Assembly: GCA_903813345.2 (NCBI GenBank)
Contig: CAIIXF020000010.1
Coordinates: forward strand, 30,248,828-30,312,827
Origin: Owenia fusiformis
Taxonomy: Eukaryota > Annelida > Polychaeta > Sabellida > Oweniidae
DNA length: 64,000 bases
Direction of reading: 5' to 3'
The position numbers were made by a program, and so were the translations under genes. Within the stretch, counting starts at the first letter, position 1; each line of letters opens with the position of its first letter. Of the stretch, positions 1,912 to 54,700 are shown one piece after another. Under the pieces are notes generated by a model. That model searched no databases and had not been told where the DNA came from. It was given only the letters and a program-made list of their open reading frames with translations.

Positions 1912-2809
1912 TACAGTAATTATTAGGAGTACTTAACTTGGTCTTTCGTGTACGTTTATTTGAAGAACCTCAATATTTTATGTAATAGTAATGAGCTTTC
2001 CTCGTGATCGAAGCGGGTACTCGTGATATCTGCTCCTGTTTTCAGCGGGACCTCCTCATGTTTTCAGCGGGGCTTCCTCATAACTTCAGCGGGGCCACTG
2101 GCACACCTTCAATGATGTATTTCACCCCCACAGTGGATGTTTTTGAAAACAAACTGATCAATACATACAATGTTGGTCAAATATTCATAATGAGGTATGT
2201 ATATCGTAGTTCGTGTCTCTATTTTAACCATAAAAGTAATATGTTAACAGTAAATTATTCAAACGTGCATATTGACGCCCGTTTCTTCCGTGCCAGTAAA
2301 AATAGTTATCTTTCATGTCATTGTTTGTGAAGATATACCTGTTCTGAAAGTATACCTAAAGTATCAAAGAACAGTAATGCGTATTCTTACCTTTTTGGTC
2401 CACATTTCCAGATGAATTAAATAAAAAGGACTTTGCTCGTGATTTCAGCGGGAACTTGCTCGCGACCTCTCAATTATAACGGGGCTTTGGATACAACCCG
2501 TGAACAGTATATTTGACCATAGTAACTAGAAAAACAGCAACTCCACGGGGTATCAAATCCCACCAAACAAAATATATTTAGACTATTAGTGGCCATCTTG
2601 AATTTCCTTCTTGAGCAGAGCTTGTTTGTCCCTAAGCATAAACATATAAAATGTAAACCATATCTCTCAATTAGCATTTAAGTTATCAAAGATAACATTT
2701 CTTTTTTATGAAATATTGCAGCCATTTTGAAATTCAGCCACCATTTTCAAAATCTTTCTCGAACAGAAATATCATTTCTTTACTTTCATATTTTGTAAGG
2801 TTGTTTTTA
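1912..2809. other. No gene recognised
   Basis: AT-rich sequence with a few short repeats of a TTTTCAGCGGG-like motif around 2040-2095 and 2441-2476. The open frames are short and show no family resemblance. Confidence 0.4.
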
Positions 2810-3619
2810 GCCTTGCCCAAGTTGGTCTCTTTTACTTATCTTGATTTTGTATTATGACCGCCTTGTACCCAAGAGAAGGCCATGTGCTTTACCGACCAAA
2901 TGTTTATGATGGTAAAATTTGACCAATCAATGACAGCCCTGACGCATTCGCTCATTATTATGCACGGTCAAAAACAAGTACACTTTTCACCGGGACTTTT
3001 CACAAACAAATCTTGCACAAATTCATCATGAAAATACAAATATTTTATCAGATAAATATCAATAAGAGTTAAGTGGATGCTGGGGCATCGATCGGATTTG
3101 ATTCGATAAGATTTCAACAAGAAACGTTGAAACGATCGCTGAATTCAAATGATCGAACATCTGGTCTGAGATTCAATCACTTAATCAGATTGACGATTAC
3201 ATGGCCGGACCGGACCAGTGCATTTTCACCACGAATTTAGTTTTAAATCAAAATTGAAACGCATGATTTAATTTATATTAATGACCCCTTACATTCCAAT
3301 GTACATTTAATTACATAATATATTGTAACTCTAAAGAAATACTCAATCAGATCATTGAATTTCAAGTTGTAGACAGGTAGTTTGCTTTGTTTATGCAGAT
3401 CAACCTGATAACGTTTTGATTGGTCAATCAGCCTGAAGTCACACATCGTGTCCATGTGATGTTCTAAATCAATAAGGTTTTGCGATACCCCTGACAGCGT
3501 AGGTATTATGGAAATCTCGATACCGCTGAATAAATAATATCAGCAGAGATGTATTGGATTGTACAAGGCGGTAATAATTCAAGATCAGATAAGTAAAAAA
3601 ATACTGACTTGGGCAAGGC
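2810..3619. mobile_element. MITE with ~60-bp terminal inverted repeats
   Basis: The left end GCCTTGCCCAAGTTGG and the next ~45 bp (through GACCGCCTTGTAC) are mirrored at 3565-3619 (GTACAAGGCGG ... CTTGGGCAAGGC). The interior has no transposase frame, so the element is non-autonomous. A clear target duplication was not established. Confidence 0.65.
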
Positions 3620-3652
3620 AAAGTTGCTTTCAATTCTCCCAGTTCACTTCTA

Positions 3653-4007
3653 AAAGGACTATTCTTGGTTTAGAGAACAGTCTCCTGGGCTAATAATTTT
3701 TTTATGAAAAATATAGAATTTTTACCCAAATTAAATTATAAATATTCAAAAGAGTACATTTAAATCTACAAGATGTAAAAATATCACAATTGTCCGAAGC
3801 AGTGGTTACAAGTCTCGATTTGGAGAAAGAAGTTCATCAGTGTATTGTGCTAATAATCTTTTGATGAAAAATCTAGAAATATCACCCAAATTCAATCATG
3901 ACTATTCAAAAGAAGACATTCAAATCTATATTATGTAAAAAAAAGTCCAAAGCATTGGTAGTGCTTAACTAGAGTGATGAACTCTCCTAACCGAGAATAG
4001 TCCTTTA
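3653..4007. mobile_element. Small foldback MITE with internal duplication
   Basis: The termini AAAGGACTATTCTTGGTTTA and AACCGAGAATAGTCCTTT are inverted copies. Inside, a ~130-bp segment (CTAATAAT...CACCCAAATT...ATTCAAAAG) occurs twice in tandem, at about 3691-3790 and 3848-3945. No coding content. Confidence 0.55.
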
Positions 4008-5099
4008 AAAATGTGTTATCATTAAACTAATGATTTTGTTTTTCTATGTATTTCAGAGAGGTCACTTCACTCCATCCTTCAAGATCGCTCCTTCACTGCT
4101 TTCATGCAGCTCGTGTAATGTAATGCAATGAATCACTCTTGGGTAAAAGTTGACTTCACGCTGGAGTGAACCATAAACTGAACAACACTGTTGTATCAAA
4201 CATTAATCAATTCCTCTGTAAGAATAATAGACAAGATGCGAGTAAAAATAATCTTCAAAGTGGTGTCATATTTGAAATCTACATGTAAAAGTACATCGAG
4301 AAATATGGTTTGAAAATTGTTCATCAACTTTGAAAGTTTTTTTTTAAATGTGACTTCTAGTTTAATTTTGCATAACTATTAGATATACCTATTGTTACCT
4401 ATCTTCAAATGAAACATCTTTGAGTTTTAAGTTTTAGATTTTATGGAAACTTTTGACAAGTTTGGAAAATGTTGTATTTGCAAAAGGGACATAAACTTTT
4501 GTCTTTTTGGAAGAAAGGGGAGCACTATTATTACCAAATGCAACTTTAGTAGGTCCTCATGGCCTGACCTAAATCTCTGACTTTTATTTTTGACAACAAA
4601 AAACATGATTCTTTGGTAGCCAATCAGATTTGCCGATATAAACACACCCAGGTCGAAGTAATAGAAAACATTGTGTATTTGAAAATCATGATAGCATGTT
4701 TCTTTACTACTATGCTGCAGTAACAGTGACCTGAATGTGATGTTAAATCTTTGCATCCCAGGGTTGAATGTTATTTCTGATTTTCAGGTTATTAAAATTT
4801 CTTTTTCTTGAATTCCTGAGAAAATGAGAAAAAATGGCATAACCGGGAACACCGAATGGTGATTTTATCTTTATCAGATGATTAAAGTATCTATTATACA
4901 TTTACCCCACAATTATTGAGTTATCTGTACAATAACACCCAGTGATATTTCTGATATTATGGAAATCTGTGTAATATTTTTCATAAAATCTTTTATCAGC
5001 CACACATATAGCTGCTATCATTTATCAGCCACATATCTGTATGATAAAAGAATTTGAATGTTTTGGATGTTTTTGAACTTTAGATTGTATCATAGGACA
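4008..5099. other. No gene recognised
   Basis: Non-coding sequence. A 330-bp minus-strand open frame at 4427-4756 has low-complexity, non-domain composition and no splice or family support. Confidence 0.4.
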
Positions 5100-10854: not shown

Positions 10855-13165
10855 AACTTTACCTCAGACCTCAGTCTCCCCTCAACACCTCCAGGAATAA
10901 ATGGCAAGTCCCAGGCTCAACAAAGGTATGTTGAATGTTGATGTGGTGTTCTCATGTTGAAACTGGACTCTATTATACATACAGACGATGTCCTTAAATG
11001 ATGAATCATAACTTCATGTATTTCGGAGTGGATGCATTACCCCAAAGAGCACTACCTCACTATCCCCCCTCAACATCCCAAGAATAAATGGCAAGTCCCA
11101 GGCTCAACAAAGGTATGTTGAATGTTGATGTGGTGTTCTCATGTTGAAACTGGACTCTATTATACATACAGACGATGTCCTTAAATGATGAATCATAACT
11201 TCATGTATTTCGGAGTGGATGCATTACCCCAAAGAGCACTACCTATCTCCCCTCAACATCCCAAGAATAAATGGCAAGTCCCTGGCTCAACAAAGGTATG
11301 TTGAATGTCAATGTGATGTTCTAATGTTGAGACTGGACTCTATTATACATACAGACGATGTCCTTAAATGATGAATCATAACTTCATGTATTTCAGAGTG
11401 GATGCATTACCCCAAAGAGCAATACCTCACTATCTCCCCTCAACATCCCAAGAATAAATGGCAGGTCCCTGGCTCAACAAAGGTATGTTGAATGTCAATG
11501 TGATGTTCTAATGTTGAGACTGGACTCTATTATACATACAGACGATGTCCTTAAATGATGAATCATAACTTCATGTATTTCAGAGTGGATGCATTACCCA
11601 AAGAGCACTACCTCACTATCTCCCCTCAACATCCCAAGAATGAATGGTATTTCATGGCTCATCAAAGGTATGTTGAATGTTGATGTGAAGTTCTAATGTT
11701 GAAACTGGAGTCTATTATACTGTATATACAAACTGCACTTAAATGATGAATCATAACTTCATGTATTTCAGAGTGGATGCATTACCCAAAGAGCACTACC
11801 TCACTATCTCCCCTCAACATCCCAACAATAAATGACAAGTCCCAGGCTCAACAAAGGTATTTTGAATGTTGATGTGGTGTTCTCATGTTGAAACTGGACT
11901 CTATTACATATACAAACTGTACTTTAATGATGAATCATAACTTTATGTATTTCAGAGTGGATGCATTACCCCAAAGAGCACTACCTCACTATCCCCCCTC
12001 AACATCCCCAAGAATGAATGGCAATCCCTGGCTCAACAAAGGTATTTTGAATGTTGATGTGGTGTTCTCATGTTCAAACTGGACTCTATTACATATACAA
12101 ACTGTACTTTAATGATGAATCATAACTTTATGTATTTCAGAGTGGATGCATTACCCCAAAGAGCACTACCTTACTATCTCCCTCAACATCCAAAGAATGA
12201 ATGACAAGTCCTTAGCTCATAAAAGGTATGTTGAATGTTGATGTGGTGTTCTCATGTTGAAACTGGACTCTATTACATATACAAACTGTACTTAAATGAT
12301 GAATCATAACTTCATGTATTTCAGAGTGGATGTGTTACCCCAAAGAGCACTACCTCACTATCTCCCTCAACATCCAAAGAATGAATGACAAGTCCTTGGC
12401 TCATCAAAGGTATGTTGAATGTTGATGTGATGTTCTAATGTTGAGACTTGACTCTATTATATATACAAACTGTACTTAAATGATGAATCATAACTTCATG
12501 TATTTCAGAGTGGATGTGTTACCCCAAAGAGCACTACCTTACTATCTCCCTCAACATCCAAAAGATGAATGACAAGTCCTTGGCTCATAAAAGGTATGTT
12601 GAATGTTGATGTGATGTTCTAAAATTGAGATTGGACTCTATTATATTTACAATCTGTACTTCAATGATGAATCATAACTTCATGTATTTCAGAGTGGATG
12701 CATTACCCATAAGAGCACTACCTCACTATCTCCCCTCAACATCCCAAGAATGAATGGCAAATCCCTGGCTCATCAAAGGTATGTTTAATGTTAATGTTAT
12801 GTTCTAATGTTGAGACTGGACTCTATTATACTGTATATACAAACTGTACTTAAATGATGAATCATAACTTCATGTATTTCAGAGTAGATGCATTACCCCA
12901 AAGAGCACTACCTTACTACAGTATCTCCCCAACATCCCCAAGAATGAATGGAATGTCCCTGGCTCATCAAAGGTACGTTTAATGTTGATGTTCTAATGTT
13001 GAGACTGGACTCTATTATGCTGTATATACAAACTGTACTTAAATGATGAATCATAACTTGATGTATTTCAGAGTAGATGCATTACCCTTGAAAGCACTAC
13101 CTCACTATCTCCCCTCAACATCCCCAAGAAGGAATGGCATGTCTATGGCTCATCAAAGGTATGTT
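10855..13165 (+). repeat. Tandem array of ~12.5 exon-like cassettes, ~186-bp period
   Basis: Units repeat at 183-190-bp spacing; GATGCATTAC-type anchors lie at 11031, 11218, 11401, 11588, 11776, 11960, 12145, 12329, 12513, 12697, 12887 and 13076. Each unit has a TATTTCAG-like acceptor, an ~84-86-bp segment and a CAAAG|GTATGTT donor, then a ~100-bp intron-like spacer. The first two full units have CGG instead of CAG at the acceptor. Single-base C indels (for example in the units at 11588, 11776 and 12145) and TAG in the last two units break the reading frame. Not all copies can be coding. The most economical reading is a minisatellite grown from an exon plus intron. Confidence 0.85.
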
Positions 13166-14465: not shown

Positions 14466-17400
14466 CTAAACAGAACATGCATAAATATACTATAAATGTG
14501 TTATTTTGATAATAAATATTTTGAGTTATCTGTATTCAATAATTCCAGGGATAGTTTTGAGTCTTAACTTAGAGGAATCAGTTCTAATCATTAAATTTTT
14601 AATTATTTCATGAATCAGAGGGCCAATCAGAGGGTTCAATACTCAAACAATAAATTTAATTAAATCACATGGAGAAAAAAGTAAAATCAAATTGCAATAT
14701 TGAAAAAATCTTCTTGATTATAAATAATTTATGATGGCAAATGAAGACACCAAATTACAAAATATTTATTTACGTTATGTTCGTCTGCAACATCTCACAG
14801 GCGTGTTCATCAGGTAGAAGTAACAGCTTACTGGTTAGATCAATGTCCGTCTGCTCTTCAATCCCCTTGAACAAACATATAAAATAAATGTCATGCTTAT
14901 TTCACTTTCATTCAATGTGATTTCTGTACAATTTAAATTCTTGACATCATGTATATTAAACCTGCACATCACTCCAAAACGCAATCTTGGGTTGTTTCGG
15001 GGGTGAACTTTATCATTTTGAGCTTAATGAAAGATTTTAGAATGATGAACAAATGGGGCAAATCTTGTGTATAAATACTTACGATAAATGTGTCATTTGA
15101 AAGATTGTTCATTGAATTGTTTCGATTGGTGACGACAATATGATTTTGGAAAGGTTTCTAAATTAAGAAAGTGACATCACTTCCGAATTATCGCATTTAA
15201 CATAAGTAGCGTTTAATTACTCCAATCATTCATAATAACTCGGTGGCCTTGCGGTAGAATGCTTGCTTAGCACGCAGGAGGCTCGGGTTCGAATCCCCAA
15301 CGAACTTTTTTATTTTTTTAACTAAATGATTGTTCTTTGATATTACGCAGAAAAAAACTTTTTTATATACATAAACTTTATATTAAAAACAATATATGCC
15401 AACATATTGCAATTTGGAGCAATGTGCAGGTTTAACTTTATTCCTTGCTAATTCCTCTCTTGTCTTGTCTATTTGACATTTTAAAATATGACAGACAATG
15501 TTGTTCCAATCTTTTTTCAATGTCTGTCTGATTCATATATATTATTTTAAGTCCCTACTTATTCTATCCTCTATGTAATAATTTCAACATCTGCTCTATA
15601 ATGCTCGTTAATCTCTTGATTTCAGCAAACTGATAAACCAATAATAGGATTCCAACAATTTGGACCAAATGACCATGTGTGATCAAAGTAGACAAAAAGT
15701 TCTACACTGGGATAACAAAGAAGCCATCCTGTGGCATTCACTTCCCCAAGCAGTGTTAGAGCCTTCATTTTCAACTGTTCTCCTTTATATTTCCAGATGA
15801 ATGATTCTGTTTGGAGAATGCGAGAGCAGCCCTCTGCCATCTCATTGCTGTTAGTAGCAATTCCCATAGTGTCCCTGAACTAAGACATGGCAGATTAGCA
15901 AGGCTGCAGACTACCTTGAAAATATGAATCCAGAGGCTTAAGAGTGTCCCTGAACTAAGTCACTGCAGATTAGCAAGGCTGCAGACTACCTTAGAAATAT
16001 GTATCCAGAGGCTTAAGAGTGTCCCTGAACTAAGTCACGTCAGATTAGCATGGCTGCAGACTACCTTGAAAATATGTATCCAGATGCCTAAGAGTGTCCC
16101 TGAACTAAGTCACGTCAGATTAGCATGGCTGCAGACTACCTTAGAAATATGTATCCAGAGGCTTAAGAGTGTCCCTGAACTAAGTCACGTCAGATTAGCA
16201 TGGCTGCAGACTACCTTGAAAATATGTATCCAGATGCCTAAGAGTGTCCCTGAACTAAGTCACGTCAGATTAGCAAGGCTGCAGACTACCTTGGAGATAT
16301 GAATCCAGAGGCCTACGAGTGGTCCTGATCAAAGTCACTGCAGATTGGTGGCTGCAGACTACCTTGAAAATATGTATCCAGAGGCTTATAGACTATTAAG
16401 ACAGAGATTTAAGGAGCCTTTGAACCATTATATGATACTGCATTGAGGTGATCAACAAATTGGACACAAATTGAGCAATGCTTATCTTAACTCTAGTCAA
16501 AGTTCTGTTGCTACATTGAGATAGCAATTCTTTTTGGCTCATATATGTATTTGTTAGACTGTTTATCCCAAATACCATTGACTGTATATTCTAAATAGCA
16601 CTGACTGTATATTTTAAATACCATTGACTGTATATTCTAAATAGCACTGACTGTATATTCTAAATACCATTGACTGTATATTCTAAATACCATTGACTGT
16701 ATATTCTAAATAGCACTGACTGTATATTCTAAATACCATTGACTGTATATTCTAAATAGCACTGAATGTATATTCTAAATACCATTGACTGTATATTCTA
16801 AATAGCATTGACTGTATATTCTAAATACCATTGACTGTATATTCTAAATAGCACTGACTGTATATTCTAAATACCATTGACTGTATATTCTAAATACCCT
16901 TGCCTGTATATTCTAAATACCATTGACCGTATATATTCTAAATATCACTGATTGTATATTCTAAATACCATTGACACTATATTTTAAAAGCCATTTTTAT
17001 ATAACAAAATATAAATGCTTCCTTTTAAATGTAATCTGGATGTAGTTAAAATGTAATTCTGTTACAAAGCATCACAACATATGCCCAGTAGGGCATCTAG
17101 TGGCATGATTTTATAGTGTATATTATATAGGAATTATGAAATGAGCTGAATAGACTAATACATGATAAGTCAGAGTGAGAACAATATTCTTAACTTCTGT
17201 GTTGAAGAGCTCTCATTTCTGGTGCAGAATATTTTTCACATCTGGGTTCTTTCCCATTGAAATAATAAACAGGGTCCGATTTTGACCTAACATTTCAGCT
17301 TTATTTGACATTCTTCTTCACATATACTTGCATAATCGATAAAAAATATATGTCCTTATCATAACTGCAAGGCATTTCCACATATATTTTCCTAAACTGA

Positions 17401-20400
17401 CGAAGATAATCATGAAATGTATTATTGGGATGACATTGACTCATTTCCGGAAGCCGAGACCCAATGACTGGATATGAAACAAGAACCAAGTTCTTATGTA
17501 TATAAAATTGGTTGAACTTTATGTTTATATATATTTGACTTGTATCAATTGGGAGGGTTGTAACTGGAATTGATGTAAACTTTTTAGTCCAGACAATACC
17601 CAAGAACATGCTTTATATCGCCTATTGTCTATTGTGTATAAGTCTGAATTGTGTATGTCCTATTAGTGAAGTGTACCAAAGTATAAGTATTTTGGAGAAT
17701 GAATTCCATTTTATTTTTATTTGTCCTTTAAATAACTAAGAGTAAAGCTCATTAAACAGTATTGAAACAGTATCGGTTTGTGCTTTGTACGACATTCTGT
17801 CCAACTTGTGCTGAATTTCAACATATTGAATGGCCCATCATCATTTATTCCTTAAAAGGGCAACAAGGACTGTAGAGGGAAAATTCAAAAGTTTTTCTCA
17901 GCTATCAGGGCTTAACATTTTCTTTGACATTCCTATTTTGTTAAAATGTATGGATAAACTGTCAATTTCAGCATTAAGAAGTGTAAATTCAGTTCAAAGC
18001 TTCTATAAAGGGAGTCCCAAATTATAGCTTTTTATGATCCACTGCCTTTCAAGAGGAATATCAGCTGATATTATGTTCATCCAGGGAGTTTCTTTTTAGA
18101 TAATAAAAATATATGTTGGTCTTAATGAAGTATCCAAACTTCAATATATTTTGACACTGGTCGATGATCGTTGAATGGCCCCAATGACCTAATTGTTGCA
18201 CCTTTAATTATTACACTTTATCATTACAACAAAAGCTTATTATTGTAATATTAAATGTCAAAAATAGAGTCAAAGTTTTATATAGGTACTAAATATGATA
18301 TGTAAACATGTAATGTAGTCTAATGTACTATTTTTGTAAAAATAAGGGCATATATTTTGTTTGTAATTAACTAAACTACATGTATAAACTTAAAAGCGAT
18401 CGCTTTATGTTACTTTTCTGTCATATCTGCATTCATAACACTTCACTCGAGCTAGTGGGACCATACAGATCTTGAGGGACTATTCTTACCATATTGCTGA
18501 CATAAGAGGCTTTGACCATATAAGGGAAGGGAATACAACTTGTCCAAATACACACTACTATACCTTGCATTTGGTGTTCATGAGCAACCCATTTGGCTTA
18601 TTAGTAATGATTATGTATTTGTTTTTATTTGTCTGTTCCTTATGAATGGTTTATGGTTGAAAATTAGATGCTAGTAAGGCACTTTCAAAAATATATTAAA
18701 CAATTCAATTAGACAAACAAAGTATCTTATGCATTTCTAGGTGTTAGGTATAGTAGTGTGAATATTGTTTTTAATCTAAATATAAAACAACTATATTAAT
18801 CAGTAGATATATCAATTTTTATCTTAATAATTCCCAGACATAATTCTAAATCAATGATGTTTCAAAATTCAATATGAAGTTTTTAAAACATGCAGTTTTC
18901 TACATCTTATTATCACTAAATCCACTTGATTCTTTCCCATCTTTTGACATCCCTTGACACCATTTCTTAATTAATGGCGATAGATTTGTCCATTACCTTT
19001 GTAGGCGTGTCACCTGTACGGACTGTACTATTGATTGGAATGCTAAACCGTTGTAGTTCTGCACAGAAGTCCTCAGGTGTATTTTCATCATAATACTTAT
19101 CACTGATTTTCACCAAATCTGAAACAATTCACACTTAAACACCCTATGCAGACAGAGCCTGTGGGAAATATTGGGTGCGGAGCAAATGAGCGGAGGGTGC
19201 GGAGCTAACGGTCATTTTTGAATTTAAATTTGGGATATTTCTGAAACTAAGCCGTTTTGGGACTTCAAATATACCAAGATATGTGTATTTGACACCAAAT
19301 ATCAATACAATTGTGAAAATAGTAGCGCAATTCATTCTATAGCGACGCAGTGTGCCTTAAACCTTTCCCAGACTTATATATTTTGAAATTATCCTTTTAA
19401 TACTGAGTCCCAAGCATTCATAAAAAATGGTGTTCAAGGTACACTATCTATACAAATTATTTTTGCATCTTGGAAGCCAGGCAGTATCTGTGTGATTTTA
19501 TAAAAATTCGGAAATGTTTTTCAGATATGAGCCCCCTTTAAATATTGGGTGCGGAGCAGCTCCATAAACGTACCTCCGCACCCAATATTTAGAGGGGGCT
19601 CATATCTGAAGAACATTTCCGAATTTTTATAAAATCACACAGATACTGCCTGGCTTCCAAGATGCAAAAATAATTTGCATGGGTAGTGTATCTTGAACAC
19701 CATTTTTTATGAATGCTGGGGACGCAGTATTAAAAGGATAGTCTCAAAATATATAGGTCTGGGAAATGTTTAAGGCATAATGCGTCGCTATAAAATGAAT
19801 TGCACTACTATTTTCACAATTTTATTGATATTTGGTGTCAAATACACATATCTTGGTATATTTGAAGTCCCAAAACGGCTTAGTTTCAGAAATATCCCAA
19901 TTTTAAATTCAAAAATGACCGTTAGCTCCGCACCCTCCGCTCATTTGCGCCGCACCCAATATTTCCCACAGGCTCTGTCTGCATAGGGTGTTAAATAATA
20001 GTTTTCTTTTCATAAAGATGACAATTGCATTTTGCTTTTACAATATAATTCACCTACATAATTGTTTGAACTACAGGGTGCCCCCAAAATATGTTACCCT
20101 TCAATTTTGTTATTATCATAAATATTACATTTAAGTTTTCATCATACAGATTACTTCATCGCTTGCAGAAATCTCTCTTTCTAAATCTCAAAATTGAAAC
20201 ATGTCCCACACGAGTGGTCCTGGAAATCAAGAGGGAGGGGGGTCCAAAAAAATGTTCATGCTTACAAGAAAGAAGTTTTTTGCCCAATTTTGAAATTTTG
20301 GGAGAAGCAGATTTTTGGGCCCCAATTCTTTTCAAGACTCCCCTTTTATCTCAAAGTGCACCATTATCCACCCCTGCTCTCCTCCCACACAACTTACCTT

Positions 20401-23400: not shown

Positions 23401-26400
23401 TCAAATTCGAAGTACTGACTTTGTACCAGTCTATTTTATTTCTCGCTGAAAATACTCCTATCAAGTCATTTTGGGTTTGAATGTATGATCACAGAGGTTT
23501 TAACAGGTTGTTGAAATGTAATTTTCTCAGGAGTCAAAATTTGTTTTTAAACAATAGAAAATCAGGAAAATGCATATTTTTCTACGATTTCTACTGCTTA
23601 ATGCATTATTGGTAAGTATTTCAATTGGATATCTTAAGATATGTGTGAGATATTTATTTCTATTTTCAGTTGGTAAATAAGTTGCAAGATTGTTACATTT
23701 TTTATATGTGTAATGATTTTATTGTTTTGTACATTAATTTGCCATTGTGTGTGATTTTTGAAGAGATTGTTCCAACATGTTATTTCTACGTCTCCTAGCT
23801 TAAATAAAACAATTATAACTAGACTTTGGAAATTGAATAAAGTTCAATTTCAGACTCCAGATTGAGACCATTTTTAGCCGAGTCATCCAGAATAAGCTGA
23901 GTCATCCAGAAAAAGATGGATGAATAAAATAGGAAGGTAGGATAGGATAGAATAGGAAGGAACGATAGGATAGAACAGAATAGGAAGAAAGGATATGATA
24001 GGAGAGGATAGGAAGGAAAGATACGAAGGACGCATAGATAGGAAGGATAGGATAGGATAAGATCAGATAGAAAGGATGGATAAATTTTTCAAAATTTTCG
24101 ACTTCTCTACTCTTGACTTTCTATCAGGATACCATCAGATCGATTTTCCAAAATTGAGCTTTCAAAACGCCATAACTTTCGAACCAGAAGTCGGAAAATT
24201 CTACCCTTAATTCATAACTCACACGTTAAATTTGGAGAAATTTTTATTTTGACCTACTTTTAGGACACCATATCTCAAAAGTGGGTCGAAATATTTTCTG
24301 ACGGCAAAGGCTAACACTATAAGCACACTCTTTCCTACCTGTATACAAAATTTTGAAGCAAATCATTTAAACATAGTGTCAGAATTGGAAAAAATAAGGA
24401 AAAACTATGAATTTGACCTAGATTTTGACCTAGGGATTTTGGTGTCCAAATTTTGAAGTTAAGTAGCCTTCGAGGTCCCCTTCTTTCATAAGCTTTCATT
24501 ATTTTAAGCTGTACTTAGTCTATATCTCGTATTTTACACTTCAAAAAAATCTTTTTTCCTATTGACATAACATGGGGCACCAAATTTAGCGATTTTTGAG
24601 CTTTAAATATGTCATAACTTCCGAACCGGAAGTCCGATCGAAATTTGATTTGCAGATTCGGATTCCTGAGAAAATTCTATACTTAATTCATAACTCAAAC
24701 GTTAAATTTGGAGAATTTTTTATTTTGACCTACTTTTCTGACACCATATCTCAAAAGTGGGGCAAAATACTTTCTGACGGCAAAAGGCTAACACTATTAG
24801 CACACTCTTGGCTACATGTATACAAAATTTCGAAGAATATAATTAATCTGTAGTGTCAGAATCGCAAAAATAAGGAAAAACTTTGAATTTGACCTAGATT
24901 TTGACCTAGGCATTTGTGTCCAAATTTTAAAGCTAGATGGCTTTTGAGGTCCCATTCTTTTAAAAGCTTTCATTATATTTAGCTGAACTCTTTCCCATTG
25001 ACTTAACATGGGCTCCAAATTAAGCGATTTTTGAGCTTTCAAAACGCCATAACTTCAGAACCGGAAGTCTGATCCATATTTTGTTTTCAGATTCGGAATT
25101 CTGAGGAAATTTCCTATAAGACTGATATCCTGGACATTTGATTCGGAGAACTTTTTTTGGACCTCGTTTTTGGACACTGATATCTCGAAATCGGTTAGAG
25201 ATATCAAAAAACTAAATGACGCTAGCTTTCCTTCTTTTTTATAAGGAACACAATGAAAAAAACCGGATCGAAAATATTTAAGGACGACCGAGAAAATCGA
25301 AAAAAAGTGACAAAGTACTGGATTTGACTTAGTTCCTGACCTTTGACCTAGATAAAAATTTGACCCAATTTCCTACCAACTAGATACTGAACCTAAATAT
25401 ACTGTATTATAGTCTTTACTGGATTCCTTATAGTTATTGAAAAAACTCTTAAAGAAAAATAAGAAAAATAAGAATAAGAAGAAGAAGAATGAGAATACTG
25501 GCAAAAACAATAGACTCCAGATTGACATCTGGAGTCTAATAAGAATACTGGCAAAAACAATAGACTCCAGATTGACATCTCTGGAGTCTAATAATGCAAA
25601 TTTTGAGTACAGTCGGATATGAAATATACAATTATTGAAAGAATGATAATTCTATTTTTGTTTGCAAGGTACTAAGTAACCAAACAACAAATGCATTGCA
25701 TAAAAAAAAGTGAACAAAGTTAGAAATTATTACAGACGGATTAACAATAATAATCTACAAAATGTTAATAATGCTTTTACAGGGTTCGTACACCTTTTTC
25801 AAAATGAATTTCCCTGACAATTCCCTGACATTTCCAGGCAAAAAAGGAAATTTCCAGATCTAATTTTCCTCGCGCGCCCTCTAAAAAGTCTCAAACAACT
25901 GTATTATTCAAGACAAAAAGACTTATTATGAAACATTTGGGGTTTCTCCTTCAGTACCACTTCTCATGACTTAACTACTTGTACAGGCAGTCTTATTCAC
26001 CAATTTATTCCTGATAAATTTTATTTTTTAATATTACATATTTTACATTGCATTAGGCCAAAGGTAAACATACATGTACAGGGGCATAGTCAACAAGTAT
26101 CAAGGAGGTGCATCATTTGGGGTTTGCATCACTGCGAGCGAAGGAAAACCAGAAGGGGGGGGGGGGGGGTACGGGGGTTCATCCCCGGAAATTTTTTCAA
26201 AATTGACAATTGTATATGGTGCATTCTAAGCATTTCAAACTATAATTTGTTAATGTTTTCTAATGAATCCAAATGACAACTGAAACTTTAAAATTTTGAT
26301 CTAAATCCTACTAGAAAAATAGCAACTCACTTGAGGGGCAATTCCCACCTAATGAAACATATTTCTATTGAATACTATCATTGTGAACATTATATGATAG

Positions 26401-29400
26401 CAATAACCTGGCATTACTATTGTCTTCTCCCTTTTGGGAAAATTACACCAAAACAATTGACACCATATTAGAAATTCCTTCTCAAGTAGCATCACCAGAT
26501 CACGAAAAGGCTCAGGCCTATGATACCAAATCAAATAATCAGTATTTTGTGTTATCAGGAATCAAATTTCTTTAAATTATCAAAAATTTCATAAAAAAAT
26601 GGTGGCAATTTTGAATTCAGAGACCATCTTGAATATTTCTTCTTGAGCAAGTCCTTTGTCCCTAAGGCTACATCATACAAAATTTGAGCCAAAGTAAAAT
26701 GCTGGGTTCATCTTTACAAGAAGAAAAATTTGGACCAAATTCAAAAACTGTTAATAGTACCCCACACACATTTTGGTTGCCTACTTCCATGTGCTAAGGT
26801 TTTCAAAATTGGCAAAGCCCCTGAAAGTTGAAAAGACTGACGTACGATCGGACTGTCGAACAGACAGCTTCTTAATATAATAAATACAATTTTACATTGT
26901 AAAGAGCTCCCAGATTTTTTTTTGTTTTTCACCTCCCGCCACCCCCCTCAGATTAACCCCTCATCAAACCATGAAATATATACCAGTAATTAACTAAGGC
27001 TAAGCTTACTACATAATAAAAAAGCATAATTGTATTAAATCATCTATACATTATTTTTATTGTTCGGTTTCAGTGTAATGTTCACACTGTTCTTACAAAT
27101 AGACAATACCAGATCTAATGTCATTCAACCAACCCTAATGAAAAGATTTGCAATTTGTGGAAACAACTAGATGATTTTGGATTTCACTTATATCCTGTCA
27201 TAGCCCTAAAATGTATTTTGCTGGAACATTATTCTTTCAACATTGATACAAAATTCCCTGACATTTCCCTGACACATCTACTGTTTCAAAATTCCCTGAC
27301 ATTTTTGGCTCTTTTTGACCCAATTTTAAAATTCCCTGACATTTCCAGCACCTGGAAAAATAAATAAATTTCCCTGACATTTCCAGGTGTGTACGAACCC
27401 TGTTTTAGTACAGAATAATGTGCTGACATGTTATGGATTCTACTGATATAATAAAATGTAATCTGAATGTTATTGACTTGCTCTAAAATTATCTGGAATT
27501 ATCGAATTAATAAGATCTTATAAGACAAGTTATGGATTCCACTGATATAATTGATATGTAATCTTGATGTCATTGACTTGCTATATTGATTCTAAAATTA
27601 TCTGAAATTATTGGAATTATCCAATTAATAAGATCTTATGAGGCAAAGCTATACCAAATCCTGTTGAGAAAAAATCTATTTTTCATTTTAACCAAGCATG
27701 ATAAAAATAATGAAATAAATACTATTTTTAAGGTAAGGACTGATGCGGATGATAGTCAAGATGTTGAGATTGGCTTTGACATGCCTGATGCACACTATGA
27801 AGACAAAGAGAGTATGTCCCAAATCATCCCAGAGTGTGAAAAGCACTTCTATGGACCATCCTGTGATATCTACTGCAACCCTGTTGATGATGAGCTTGGT
27901 CACTACCTATGTAATCCCATCAATGGAGAGAAGGTATGTCGAAATGGCTTCGCTGAACCAAAAACGGACTGTACTGTCAAGGTACCAATTAAACAAAACT
28001 GTCCTATAAGTGGTGATTGTATTAATGGAACATGTGTGAACCAACGATGTGTGTGCAACCCGGGCTGGACTGGAATGTATTGCGAAGAAATCATTGTTGG
28101 TTGTTCAAGTGGTAATCCTTGTCTAAATGGTGGAGTATGCCGGAACACAAATACTGGCAACAGATACCAATGCTTTTGTCAACCCGACTGGACCGGTACA
28201 AACTGTGAGACACCCATCAACAGATGTCCTCTAAACTATTATGGCCCAAGCTGTGAGGTATTTTGCCTCGCCGCAGATGATTGTGATGGAGGGCATTATA
28301 CATGTGATCCAAACACTGGGGCGAAGGTTTGTCTTCCTGGCTATGCAGTTCCTGAAAATGATTGTAAACTCAAAACAATTCCCAAACCATCTGATCCAGA
28401 TTGCCCAATTGACTCTCCTTGTGTTTATGGAAGATGCTACAGACGAGCGTGTTGCTGTAATGAACATTACTCTGGTGTAAGATGTGAAACATTTATAGAC
28501 TATTGCGTAAGCCAACCTTGCCAAAATGGTGGAACATGTAACCCGTTGGTAGGTGGGAACACATGTACTTGCTTGAGGGACTACACTGGTACTCATTGCG
28601 AAACCTATGATCCCCAATGCCCTCCAAATTACTACAACCCTCCTGCTTGTAATGTGTACTGTCTTGCTGCGGATGATTGTGAAAGAGGGCATTATACATG
28701 TGATCCCAACACAGGAGCGAAAGTTTGCCTACCTAGGTATGCTATGCCTGAAAACGATTGTAAAATCAAAACTCTTCCACCTCCATCGGATCCAGATTGT
28801 CCAACTGACTCTTTTTGTGTTTATGGAAGGTGCTACAGACAGTCTTGTTGCTGTAATGAACATTACACTGGTGTAAGATGTGAAACATTTATTGACTATT
28901 GCATAAGCCAACCTTGTCAAAATGAAGGCACATGTAATCCAATGGTAGGTGGGTACACATGCATCTGCTTGAGGGACTACACTGGTACTCATTGCGAAAC
29001 ATATGATCCGCAATGTCCTCCAAATTATTACAATCCACCTGCTTGCAATGTGTACTGTCTTGCTGCGGATGATTGTGATAGAGGGCATTATACTTGTGAT
29101 CCAAACACTGGGGTGAAGGTTTGTCTTCCTGGATATGCAATGCCTGAAAATGATTGTAAACTCAAAACAATTCCCCCACCATCTGATCCAGATTGCCCAA
29201 CTGACTCTCCATGCGTCTATGGCAGATGCTACAGACAGTCTTGTTGCTGTAATGATCATTACACTGGTGTAAGATGTGAAACATTTATTGACTATTGCTT
29301 AAGCCAACCTTGTCAAAATGAAGGCACATGTAATCCAATGGTAGGTGGGTACACATGCATCTGCTTGAGGGACTACACTGGTACTCATTGTGAAACATAT

Positions 29401-32400
29401 GATCCCCAATGCCCTCCAAATTACTACAACCCACCTGCTTGTGATGTGTACTGTCTTGCCGCGGATGATTGTGATAGAGGGCATTATACATGTGATCCAA
29501 ACACAGGAGCAAAGGTTTGTCTTCCTGGATATGCAGTTCCTGAAAATGACTGCAAAGTAAAAACACTCCCTCCATCAAATGATCCAGATTGCCCAATTGA
29601 CTCTCCGTGTCTTTATGGAAGATGCTACAGACGGGCATGTTGCTGTAATGAACATTACACAGGAGTTAGATGTGAAACTTTTATAGATTATTGTGTCAGC
29701 CAACCTTGTTTGAATGGAGGCACATGTAATCCAATGGTAGGTGGTTACACATGCATCTGCTTGAGGGACTACACTGGAACTCATTGCGAAACCTATGATC
29801 CACAATGTCCTCCAAATTACTACAACCCACCAACTTGCAATGTGTTCTGTCTTGCTGCGGATGATTGTGATAGAGGGCACTATACTTGTGATCCTAACAC
29901 AGGGGCCAAGGTTTGTCTTCCTGGATATGCAGTTCCTGAAAATGATTGTAAACTCAAAACAGTTCCCCCACCATCTGATCCAGATTGCCCAACTGACTCT
30001 CCATGTCTTTATGGAAGATGCTACAGACGAGCGTGTTGCTGTAATGCACATTACACAGGAGATAGATGTGAAACTTTTATAGATTATTGTGTCAGTAATC
30101 CATGCCAAAATGGTGGAACGTGCAATGCCACTGTTGGAGGGTTTACATGTACATGTCCAAAAGACTACACAGGGAGATGGTGTGAAACATATGATCTGCA
30201 ATGTCCTCCAAATTACTATAACCCACCAGATTGCAATGTATACTGCCTTGCCGCAGATGATTGTGATAGAGGTCATTATACTTGTGATCCTAACACAGGG
30301 GCCAAGGTTTGTCTACCTGGATATGCAATGCCTGAATATGACTGCAAAATAAAAACGATTCCCCCACCAACTGATCCAGATTGCCCAACTGACTCTCCAT
30401 GTGTTTATGGAAGATGCTACAGACGGGCATGCTGCTGTGATGAACAATACACGGGTGTTAGATGCGAGACCTTTATAGACAATTGCGTAAGTGAACCTTG
30501 TTTAAATGGAGGCACATGTAATCCAATTGTAGGTGGGTACACATGCACTTGCTTGATAGACTATTCTGGTACTCATTGCGAAACACATGATCCACAATGT
30601 CCTCCAAATTACTACAATCCACCTGCTTGCAATGTGTACTGTCTTGCTGCGGATGATTGTGATAGAGGGCATTATACTTGTGATCCCAACACTGGTGCAA
30701 AGGTATGCAGATATGGTTGGGATCTACCAGAACTGAACTGTACACTCAGAATTATCCCAAAGCCAGTTGATGAAGAATGCCCAGACTCTGAGATAACTTG
30801 TGTAGCAGGTCAGTGTCATAATAAATCTTGCTGTTGCTATGACAACTGGACAGGACCCCATTGTGACATACCAGTAGACCACTGTTCAAATAACCCTTGT
30901 TATAATGGATCAACATGCGAAAGAGAGACAGATCGATACAGATGCATTTGTGCAAAAGATATGTATGGGTATAACTGTGACACATACTGTAAACCAGCTG
31001 ATGATTGCCCAACTGGCCACTACACATGTGACAGTAAATCAGGAGAAAAGATATGTCTTGAAGGTTGGGAGACTCCGGAAATCAACTGCACACTTAGAAT
31101 CATCCCTCCTCCTTTAGATTCTGAATGCCCTGATGAAGGATTCTGTGCCGCTGGTCAATGCCACAACAAAAGCTGTTGTTGTCATGACAAATGGACAGGA
31201 ATGCTTTGCGAAACAAGAATTGATGAATGCCTCAGCGAACCATGCCAGAATGAGGGTACATGTCAAGCAGATGAGTCAAAGTACGAATGTCTTTGCGCTC
31301 CAAATTACTATGGCTACAACTGTGAAACACTGTGTAAAGATGCAGATGACTGCATCTATGGGCACTATGTGTGTAACAGAACAACGGGCGAAAAGATATG
31401 TCTTGAAGGTTGGGCTTTGCCAGAGATAAACTGCACACTAAGGACAATTCCACCTATTGTAGATCCTGATTGCCCAGATAATGGTGTTTGCGTATCAGGG
31501 CAATGCCATAACAATGGTTGCTGTTGTAACGATCAATGGACTGGCGAGTTTTGTGATGTCATAGTAGACGCCTGTGCAAGTAACCCATGCCTGAATCAGG
31601 CCACCTGTAACCCAACAGATGGGGGTTACACATGTCTTTGTGATTTTCGATATACAGGAACTCACTGTGAGACTTTCATTCCAAAGTGATTATTTTCACA
31701 ACCTCCAAGTTAATCGTGCTTTAACTGTAATATAGCCATTGTGCTAGCAAAAAACTAGACTTATATCAAATTTCATTGTAAAATGTAACAAATTCATTGT
31801 GTTATAACAAATGCTTTCATTGAATATAATCTTTTTAACTGTAATTTAGACATTGCACTCGTATAAACTGCTTTCATCAAATAAATATACATGTATTATA
31901 ATAATTATTTTAAAATATAATATAGACATTGTGTTAAATTAAACTGTTTGTATGAACTATAAATTTTAAACTGTAATGTACGTTAAGCTGGGCTAGTATA
32001 AAATGTTTTCATGGACTATCATATTTTTGTAAACTAAAATATAGTCATTGCAACAGAAAACATGCTTTCATGGACTATCAAATTATAAACATTTACTGTA
32101 GACACTGTCCTAGTATAGACTGTTGTCATGGACTATCAAATCATTTAACTGTGCAACTGCCTAGTGTAAACTGTTTTCATGGACTATCATACTTTTGTAA
32201 ACTGAAATGTAGAAACTGCACTAGAAAAACCTACTTCCATGGACTTTCACATTATTAATTGTATCATAGACAGTTATAAACTAATCTAGCAATTTAATTA
32301 TTCCAAATTTGACTATCACATTTGTAAACTGAAATGTAGAAATTACCCTAAAGTAATCTGCTTTTTGTGTATCAGCACTTTTGGTGGTGACATAATAAAT

Positions 32401-51743: not shown

Positions 51744-54700
51744 CGTCCGTACGTCCGGCAGTTTTCTCCAAAACCGCTACCGATATCACCTTCAAATTTT
51801 CAGGGATAACTTATGAGTGCATACAGATGTGGACGAAAAAGTTTCAAGTCGATACCTACTTCCTGTCGGCCATTTTGAAGTCAAATGCTAAAATCCTTGT
51901 CTGCAAACTTTAAGAAAAATGGCTTCACTGTTGCTTTTAAAACTTTAAAATCCTGTTCAGCTCACTTGATTCTAGATCTGATTAGGTTTTGGACCTGTAA
52001 GCCCAGTCATGGCAGCCATTTTGAATGTTTTAAGAAAAGTAAGCGTGCGATAATACTTTGTATCATATTGAATGGTGTTTTTGAGTTTTCATACTTAGAC
52101 TATTTAGTAGCTTTATAAAAAATTTCAGGTGTACTTTATTGTAAAAGCCTATGTTATTGTTAACAGTGGTTATATGTGCTAATTTTGTAAAAAGAAATCA
52201 GCAAAAAAGTGTAATCACTTTTTTATTGTCGGCCATTTTGGATTTTTCCATCCTAAAATTTTGTCTGTAAAGTCTTGTCTATGCGTTTTTAGGCGAACCG
52301 TTTGGTAGATCATTTTCAAATTTTCAGGGATGATTATTAGTATGAAAATCTAGATCTGATTAGTTTTTTGGCATTCTGGGTAAATGTCAAGGCAGCCATT
52401 TTGGATTTTCCGTCCTAAAATCTTGTCTGTGAAGTCTTGTCTACGCGTTTTCAGGCGAACCGTTTGGTAGATCATTTTCAAATTTTCAGGGATGATTCTT
52501 AGTATGAAAATCTAGAACTGATTAGTTTTTTGGCATTCTGGGTAAATGTCAAGGCAGCCATTTTGGATTTTCCGTCTTAAAATCTTGTCTCTAAAGTCTT
52601 GTCTATGCATTTCCAGGTGAAGCATTTGGTAGATCAATCTCAAATTTTTAGGGATGATTCTTAGTATGAAAATCTAGATCTTATAAGTTTTTTGGCATTC
52701 TGGGTAAATGTCAAGGCAGCCATTTTGGATTTTCCGTCCTAAAATATTGTTAGTAAAGTCTTGTCTATGCGTTTTCAGGTGAACCATTTGGTAGATCAAT
52801 TCAGGGATGATTCTTAGTATGAAAATCTAGATCTAATTAGTTTTTTGGCATTCTGGGTAAATGTCAAGGCAGCCATTTTGGATTTTCCGTCCTAAAATCT
52901 TGTCTTTAAAGTCTTGTCTACGCGTTTTCAGGTGAACTGTTTGGTAGATCAATTTCAAATTTTTAGGGATGATTCTTAGTATGAAAATCTAGAACTGATT
53001 AGTTTTTAGGCATTCTGAGCAAATGTCAAGGCAGCCATTTTGGATTTTTCCGTCCTAAAATCTTGTCTGTAAAGTCTTGTTTTCTGGTTTACTGTTTGAC
53101 GGATCAATTTCAAATTTTCAGGGATGGTTCTTAGTATAAAAATCTACAGCTGACTAATTTTTTGGGCATTCTTGGTAAATTTTAAGGTGGCCATTTTGCA
53201 TTTTCAATTCCAAAATTGTAACAGTAAAGTCTTGTCTACTCATTTTCAGGATAACCATTAGACGGGATCACCCATTGGTGGGGACATATTGTACACATTT
53301 GTGTTCTTGTTTCTAATTTATCAGATTTTTTTCTAATTTTTTCAAAACATTTTTTCAAAATTTTTTTAACTTATTTTTCAAAGTGGCATGTTATGCCTTT
53401 CTGAAGGAACACATTTCTGTCAACAAGGAACAGTTTTCAAAAGGACCAAATATTTTTTTCTATTGACTTACATGACAGAGAACCCTCTCTGTAAGGAACA
53501 CCTGTCAATTGGGAACAAGGAACAGTGTTTAAGGGCAAATATTAAAAATTCAAGTGTTCACAAGGAACATTGAAAGTTGGTTACACTGTACCTTTCTTTG
53601 TCCCTTTGGCTTTTAAATTGTACTTATTAAAGTGCCTGATAAAATATAAAATGCGCATGCATCCAGGTGTTGATAAACTATAAATAGCGAAAACCCAGGG
53701 TTTTTGTTTTGAAACATGGATTCAGATGAACTTAACTTCATTCTGACAACTAATCAAAACTGAACAAAATTGATTATACGTAACAGACGATTTATTGTTT
53801 TACAATGTTTTGATCGGCTAAATGAATGAAACCAAGAAATTATGACATGTAAAATGGCAATTTTGAAATGTAAAATTTAAAAGTGACAAACACAACCTCC
53901 CTATCCACTCTTTATGAGCCCTAATATATACATGCAGCAGTGGTAGTGTACAGCTTATTATCACACTACTGGGCTTTGTATTCTAAAGCTTGTTGTTTTT
54001 AATAACACTGTTCACTCGACGTAAATGTTTTGTGTGTGCGCAGTCAACGATAATCATTGTTTTATCCCGGTTATATGACCTCGGCAATTATAACAAAACC
54101 GTACTAAACGAAAAAAACGCAAATAAGAGAAAGCTTTCACACACATATAAAAAATGAACTAGTCTAATCCGCCAGTATAAACTCTGTTATATACGTAGCC
54201 AGGTCGGGCGCACACTTTAAGTACTATATTACTTTTGTAGCTTCTCCTCTCCTTTGTTGTCATTGTCCTTGTTCATTCATTGTTACTCTTCTGCTTTACT
54301 CTCCGACAATCTTTCATCATTTCCTGATGATGCAATCTTAACCAATTCAACAAAACCATAATAGGGATTGAAGGAAGTACATACCCCTTACAAAAATTAA
54401 ATGATGACAATTTTTTTATTTAAAATATAATGAAAACGAGTAGAATTACCAAGGATAGATAAATGAAATAAATAAATATACATCTAGTAAGTACTCGATT
54501 TTGTAATGAAATACTAGAAAATTGGCTCATTCAGTCAAATTTTAGCGAGAAGATGCATGGAATAAAAGTGACATGAGAGAAAAATGATGCAGGGGTAATT
54601 TACGAAACCTGATGCAATTATAGGTAAATTCCCCCATTGGCAATGATACCTTATAGTTTTCTATTCACACTTTTACAACAATGGGTAATTAAAAGTCAAA

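Follow-up and report, generated by a model that had tools for sequence, protein, structure and literature searches.

Notch ligands of the Delta and Jagged type begin with a signal peptide and carry one DSL domain followed by EGF repeats, an arrangement seen in JAG1 (2VJ2), DLL1 (4XBM) and two ligands of the annelid Owenia fusiformis itself, a Jagged (C8:9.60M) and a Delta (C8:20.94M) that we named by their best PDB relatives; contig C8 holds the heads of both the Jagged-like gene (C8:9.60-9.67M) and the Delta-like gene (C8:20.94M), each made up of MNNL and DSL exons. Here we describe a gene from a 64,000-nucleotide stretch of the O. fusiformis genome (assembly GCA_903813345.2, contig CAIIXF020000010.1, positions 30,248,828 to 30,312,827; hereafter the window) that encodes the same order of signal peptide, DSL and EGF domains but has ten DSL domains instead of one. 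Compared with Delta and Jagged the predicted protein lacks the MNNL (C2) domain, the transmembrane segment and the cytoplasmic part, has lost most of the residues with which ligands face the receptor, and has an extra pair of cysteines. We propose, with about an even chance of being right, that the head of a Notch ligand has been reused here as the repeat unit, armoured by disulphides, of a secreted protein with a matrix or adhesive function.

Genes with several DSL domains have been published before, in cnidarians and bivalves, and the family described here is not the first of its kind. In cnidarians, genes consisting of 1 to 11 DSL domains only and a gene carrying MNNL plus three DSL domains were described in 2009, with doubts as to their reality (PMC2770060, file 7 of which is named for Nematostella). 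These cnidarian genes resemble the window gene in placing several DSL domains on a chain, whereas the DSL-only chains, as described, differ from the window protein, in which two EGF domains follow each DSL. A study of 138 lophotrochozoan DSL genes distinguished a bivalve-only branch, with DSL or DSL tandem repeats lacking EGF, from another branch combining DSL with EGF; it mentions genes that have two or more DSL domains and reports some Delta2 ligands without a transmembrane domain (PMC8166818). Expansion of DSL by tandem repetition is common to those genes and the window family, but the bivalve tandem-repeat branch is without EGF and the window exon has both EGF and hEGF matches. The annelids listed in that study are Platynereis, Helobdella, Urechis and Capitella; its main text does not mention Owenia, and neither single-exon arrays nor a cysteine pair appear in the available main-text portions. 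The initial annotation of the window, made from the sequence alone, had allowed that a long-known family might share the architecture. Multi-DSL genes are indeed on record, but a description of DSL-EGF-EGF arrays with an extra cysteine pair was not found among them, nor elsewhere within a literature scope that excluded supplements and most subscription journals.

Nearly the whole of the window protein is encoded by a single open exon (Table 1), and the initial annotation of about ten tandem DSL domains in DSL-EGF-EGF units within one exon was confirmed by Pfam matches to both DSL and EGF. The whole protein scores 128.8 bits against a Pfam DSL cut-off of 24.2, with ten stretches at E ≤ 0.01, and all ten modules exceed that cut-off when scored singly, modules 1, 2, 9 and 10 as whole modules (45.9, 36.1, 35.8 and 37.7 bits) and modules 3 to 8 as 47-aa DSL pieces (28.7, 32.7, 33.0, 35.9, 32.7 and 31.2 bits). 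When compared as full DSL-EGF-EGF units, modules 3, 4, 5, 7 and 8 gave no DSL match at E ≤ 0.01 and module 6 gave one of 30.0 bits, and a whole-genome Pfam DSL search listed just four of the ten window modules; we take these missing matches to be filter losses because the cut DSL pieces score well. Sub-threshold DSL scores, the result named beforehand as speaking against the annotation, were therefore not obtained for any module, although five pass only as cut pieces. EGF is likewise matched in ten stretches at E ≤ 0.01. An eleventh DSL stretch that appeared in a search up to E = 10 disappears at E ≤ 0.01, and a match to the phage-protein family PF20800 in the exon lies under its cut-off and was taken as chance. 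The units had been described as exactly 396 bp long; spacings between successive GH[YFL]xC anchors are 131 aa, 132 aa (six times), 116 aa and 115 aa, so that the exact period holds for six of nine intervals, in the core of the array and not at its ends. Tandem Repeats Finder reports a period of 396, with 6.1 copies and a score of 3374, at 28276-30704. No further modules were detected in the window with a profile of the ten DSL domains run over open stretches of at least 20 aa in six frames.

The window protein is no singular case: the Owenia genome has at least five genes of this family. A Pfam DSL search of that genome listed 63 matches, and at least four further large single-exon genes with the same DSL-EGF-EGF modules lie on other large contigs (Table 1); a genome search with window module 4 returned the same five loci as the best among the matches listed, together with weaker DSL matches at C1:52.3M, C6:22.8M and C10:9.06M. 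Relatives were sought in the PDB and in this genome, and those in other animals were taken from papers. A tree of the 29 modules of exact length, for which support values were not considered, shows the window copies interspersed with those of the C1 gene and not forming a single group, hence the two arrays may descend from a common amplified ancestor or may have exchanged repeats. The window protein is under purifying selection: the mean ratio of nonsynonymous to synonymous divergence (dN/dS) is 0.10 (dS 0.76, dN 0.076) over ten pairs drawn from the five exact-length modules of the window, none of which has dN > dS, and the open array is thus not a product of chance. Over the family, dN/dS covered the 29 of 64 modules that are of exact length; the value for the C8 gene (0.47) was not used, three of its six pairs being saturated and module 7 having probably been compared without gaps.

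These data bear on two alternatives. Assemblies can collapse or expand tandem arrays, and the gene model is known from sequence alone, so one might suspect a decaying or mis-assembled array that does not work as a gene; with 1318 open codons, a dN/dS of 0.10 and four open relatives in the genome, three of them sharing the first-exon plan, we consider this extremely improbable. A secreted recognition or defence protein, for instance an immune or mucosal pattern-binding protein whose repeat number varies among paralogues, would suit at least five dispersed genes of 7 to 19 modules and the other DSL-rich loci of the genome. It seems quite unlikely given the low mean dN/dS of the window gene, with no diversifying change in pairwise averages, and Pfam matches that include neither a lectin domain nor any other domain known for binding.

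The 14-codon first exon was picked out by a scan of the region upstream of 27733 for short, hydrophobic first exons. It is the only place in the 64 kb window, both strands considered, that fits a strict pattern defined after that looser scan (ATG, 13-16 codons, hydrophobic core, GT[AG]AGT donor), which also gives one stray match near the C2 gene, on the strand opposite to that gene. DNA comparison of the upstream regions of the window gene and its four paralogues revealed no convincing conserved signal exon, and the exon plan was identified by pattern. Hydrophobic first exons of similar length, all ending in phase 0, were found for the C1, C12 and C8 paralogues (MLSTVFLLCLIAVT, MYSVLQFLLLYCYM and MNTILPFLLICYAYM, respectively), and the C2 gene has a weaker candidate with a GTATGT donor. 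When the two proteins are aligned, exon 2 of the window gene and that of the C1 gene start at one and the same residue, each after its own acceptor. The predicted splice junction from the 23570 exon to 27733, already suggested in the initial annotation, is thus supported by matching first exons in paralogues. The same annotation had described a soluble chain, in agreement with a maximum 19-aa hydropathy of 0.81 in exon 2, in which no transmembrane helix was found. No strong internal donor pattern was seen in the exon either, and for these reasons the ten-DSL protein is most likely secreted. The stop codon comes directly after the last EGF domain, leaving no membrane anchor or cytoplasmic tail of the kind that canonical ligands have. 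The chain contains 14.7% cysteine, 9.9% proline and 7.1% tyrosine and has a predicted isoelectric point of 4.5.

A canonical DSL-EGF-EGF unit has 18 cysteines, six per domain. The window modules contain either 20 or 18 (Table 1), an even number in all ten cases; modules 8 and 9 remain at 18 despite carrying an extra pair because two EGF2 cysteines are shared with the next DSL. One extra cysteine lies just before the DSL GHY motif and the other between the fourth and fifth cysteines of EGF1. Of 66 modules drawn from seven genes, 62 have both and two have neither, one alone is never found, and two modules are undecidable (module 1 of the C12 gene, and a module at C1:31.9M that has the DSL cysteine without a following EGF). 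These counts, and those of receptor-facing residues below, leave out the C1:48.0M gene, whose 15 units are of another type, and the DSL exons of loci not read as open reading frames for these counts, namely the C1:52.308M exon, the C1:31.8-31.9M exons outside positions 2409-5000 of the piece L009, and the piece L026. The modules with neither cysteine are module 1 of the window gene and module 1 of the C1 gene, probably reflecting one event. Fisher's test on the table gives p = 0.0005, a value that we do not use, as modules of paralogous genes cannot be counted as independent. The DSL cysteine is absent from JAG1, DLL1 and the Jagged and Delta of Owenia, and the EGF1 cysteine from JAG1 and DLL1. 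The extra pair probably forms a disulphide joining each DSL domain to the EGF1 that follows.

In Jagged1 the residues F199, R201, R203, D205 and F207 form the receptor-facing patch, the importance of which was confirmed by mutants (PMC3415683), and the C2 domain of the ligands provides their second contact with Notch (PMC5538765). Module 1 of the window protein aligns along DSL-EGF with JAG1 and DLL1. In human Jagged1 numbering, all ten window modules have lost R201, R203 and F207 and all ten keep D205. Position 199 is Y in seven modules, F in two and L in one; position 201 is L in seven, K in two and N in one; position 203 is A in nine and V in one; and position 207, near which the alignment has an indel, is R in six and L, G, T and Y once each. 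One of the five receptor-facing residues is kept in eight modules and two are kept in the other two, compared with five of five in JAG1, DLL1 and the Owenia Jagged and two of five in the Owenia Delta. Across the 66 modules none retains three or more, R203 is kept in three and F207 in none. The extra DSL cysteine occupies the place of F206, in the loop where ligands present F206 and F207. No MNNL or C2 domain occurs among Pfam matches to the exon up to E = 10, and no MNNL match lies beside any of the five array genes, the four in the genome being on C8 (two), C150 and C1:52.3M. The initial annotation had spoken of ten potential Notch-binding modules, a description that is not supported with R201, R203 and F207 absent from every module and no MNNL/C2 domain present; its suggestion of a Notch decoy is weakened by the same losses.

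On our preferred account, a two-exon gene consisting of a short signal-peptide exon and a giant second exon would produce an acidic, cysteine-rich chain of ten modules. The DSL-EGF head of a Notch ligand would have been separated from the C2 (MNNL) domain and the membrane anchor, acquired the extra cysteine pair at the loop that presents F206/F207 in ligands, lost most of its Notch-facing residues, and been amplified as a DSL-EGF-EGF repeat, perhaps in that order. Its job would be that of a stiff tyrosine- and cysteine-rich secreted repeat of an extracellular material such as tube, adhesive, cuticle or mucus. A secreted material appears likelier than a Notch signal because the modules have lost most of the residues that grip Notch, and a structural secretion would fit better with long, acidic repeats rich in cysteine, tyrosine and proline that are under purifying selection and have an altered receptor face. 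Such a role would work as in the EGF-type byssal proteins of mussels, in which the adhesive Pvfp-5beta consists of a tandem pair of EGF modules sharing 47-50% identity with those of Delta-like 1, and in which Mgfp-2 likewise contains EGF motifs (PMC9314366). These are secreted, disulphide-bearing proteins with Notch-ligand-like EGF modules and a material function, which the window protein resembles at the level of sequence; Pvfp-5beta differs in having two EGF modules, with DSL unmentioned in the available text, and in that its function has been studied whereas that of the window protein is predicted. The 3,4-dihydroxyphenylalanine (DOPA) of tubeworm cement and mussel plaque proteins derives from tyrosine (PMC4275877), and the tyrosine content of the window protein would permit, but only permit, such conversion. 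More specifically, and no more than tentatively, the family may form the tube or adhesive scaffold of this early-branching annelid, with a new DSL-EGF disulphide at the lost Notch face and up to 19 units per chain.

Several observations weigh against a structural reading. Few independent events stand behind the co-occurrence of the two cysteines, since the modules with neither are both first in their arrays, in genes that resemble each other. The quality of the AlphaFold2 models was too low for them to bear on the DSL-EGF1 disulphide, with a mean predicted local distance difference test score (pLDDT) of 52.7 and a predicted template modelling score (pTM) of 0.31 for one module (ten window rows), and values of 59.6 and 0.29 for two modules (nine rows). 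The sequence holds no pointer to a particular material. Most EGF2 units match the consensus patterns for sugars of the Notch-pathway type, O-glucose in eight of ten and O-fucose in nine of ten, which a structural role need not have, and the chain may for this reason have some link to Notch-pathway machinery. The Delta of Owenia is itself without F207, having N there, and has Y and K at positions 199 and 201; the DSL-EGF11 site also varies more among ligands than the C2-EGF12 site (PMC5538765). The residue loss would therefore lower, and not abolish, the odds that the window modules bind Notch, and it does not settle the matter.

These same features could suit a soluble multivalent modulator that binds Notch or its ligands weakly and acts as a decoy or clustered agonist. 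The DSL domains are genuine by sequence, D205 and an aromatic residue at position 199 persist in ten and nine modules, respectively, multivalency may offset weak affinity, and molluscan Delta2 ligands without a transmembrane domain have been reported (PMC8166818). With R201, R203 and F207 gone throughout, A or V standing at R203, a cysteine in the place of F206 and no C2 domain to supply the other contact (PMC5538765), we nevertheless judge a modulator unlikely. The modules might instead bind a growth factor or its receptor and so regulate another pathway, in the manner of DLK1, which is not known to have a DSL domain and is to that extent an imperfect precedent. For DLK1, a Delta-like protein, binding to ACVR2B but not to Notch has been reported (PMC12216052). 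The window sequence indicates no such partner, and this alternative is very doubtful.

Table 1. Predicted features of the window gene (window coordinates) and locations of its four paralogues (contig and position in Mb).
Feature	Position	Strand	Description
Exon 1	23570..23611	+	Start codon and most of signal peptide, MHIFLRFLLLNALL; 14 codons; phase-0 donor
Intron	23612..27732	+	4.1 kb; donor GTAAGT, acceptor ...TTTTTAAG before GTAAGG; simple repeats inside
Exon 2	27733..31689	+	1318 codons plus stop (TGA at 31687-31689); nearly whole protein
Signal peptide end and short acidic N-terminal stretch	27733..27834	+	VRTDADDSQDVEIGFDMPDAHYEDKE...; alignable with C1 paralogue
Module 1	27835..28224	+	DSL-EGF-EGF; 18 Cys; without extra Cys pair
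Module 2	28225..28617	+	DSL-EGF-EGF; 20 Cys
Module 3	28618..29013	+	Exactly 396 bp; 20 Cys
Module 4	29014..29409	+	Exactly 396 bp; 20 Cys
Module 5	29410..29805	+	Exactly 396 bp; 20 Cys
Module 6	29806..30201	+	Exactly 396 bp; 20 Cys
Module 7	30202..30597	+	Exactly 396 bp; 20 Cys
Module 8	30598..30948	+	117 aa; 18 Cys; last two EGF2 Cys double as first two of next DSL
Module 9	30949..31293	+	115 aa; DSL fused to EGF before it; 18 Cys
Module 10	31294..31686	+	DSL-EGF-EGF, C-terminus TFIPK; 20 Cys
Candidate poly(A) signal	31880..31885	+	190 bp 3' of stop codon; pattern match only
Paralogue	C1:2.73M		2592 codons; 19 modules
Paralogue	C2:27.55M		2193 codons; 16 modules
Paralogue	C12:34.22M		1526 codons; 12 modules (Pfam counts 11)
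Paralogue	C8:7.73M		910 codons; 7 modules

Other DSL-containing loci were noted on C1. Nineteen of the 63 listed genome matches form a cluster of about 87 kb at C1:31.84-31.93M, all on one strand; two exons there encode EGF repeats followed by one DSL that carries the extra DSL cysteine, and one of these two has a long EGF array rich in N-glycosylation motifs. At C1:52.303-52.310M an MNNL fragment (52303234, 30.0 bits) and a DSL exon carrying the extra DSL cysteine (52308129) lie on the same strand, as does a DSL-EGF-EGF exon with the full extra cysteine pair followed by a Thr-rich stretch (52309682), and the MNNL and DSL exons of this locus possibly represent an intermediate form. A different type of multi-DSL gene, with 15 short DSL units, occupies positions 2902-4851 (+) of the piece C1:48.004-48.011M; it has no PF00008 EGF match, yet EGF_laminin scores above its cut-off. 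EGF-less DSL tandem repeats are reported in bivalves only in the available text of PMC8166818, and this annelid gene suggests that the class may extend beyond bivalves.

Elsewhere in the window, a fold-back element at 19135-19995 has 422 nt arms that are 95% complementary and 17 nt apart, and satellite-like arrays occur at 10875-13165, 15868-16388, 16557-16995 and 52232-53250, with units of 184 bp (x12), 75 bp (x7), 23 bp (x19) and 162 bp (x6), respectively. Beside the multi-DSL gene on C8, and on the same (-) strand, the region C8:7.730-7.738M holds a 325-aa open frame that presumably resembles the end of a non-long-terminal-repeat retrotransposon polyprotein. In addition, four homeodomain matches fall within one 1717-aa open frame at C262:14791-17163, on a contig whose matches all have small coordinates, which is unusual for a single frame. 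A Hox cluster lies at C1:17.97-18.47M and includes homeodomains that we take to be Post2, Lox2, Lox4 and Lox5 (with KLTGP), a set that marks the animal as a lophotrochozoan; a COX1 search of the assembly gave no match.

The DSL domain is treated as the signature of a Notch ligand, and annotation by DSL alone would name the array genes 'delta-like'. A family without the C2 domain, the membrane anchor and most of the Notch-facing residues suggests that a DSL match need not mean Notch signalling. For Owenia, it would offer a testable example of the head of a signalling protein put to new use as a repeat unit, as well as a candidate secreted material protein.

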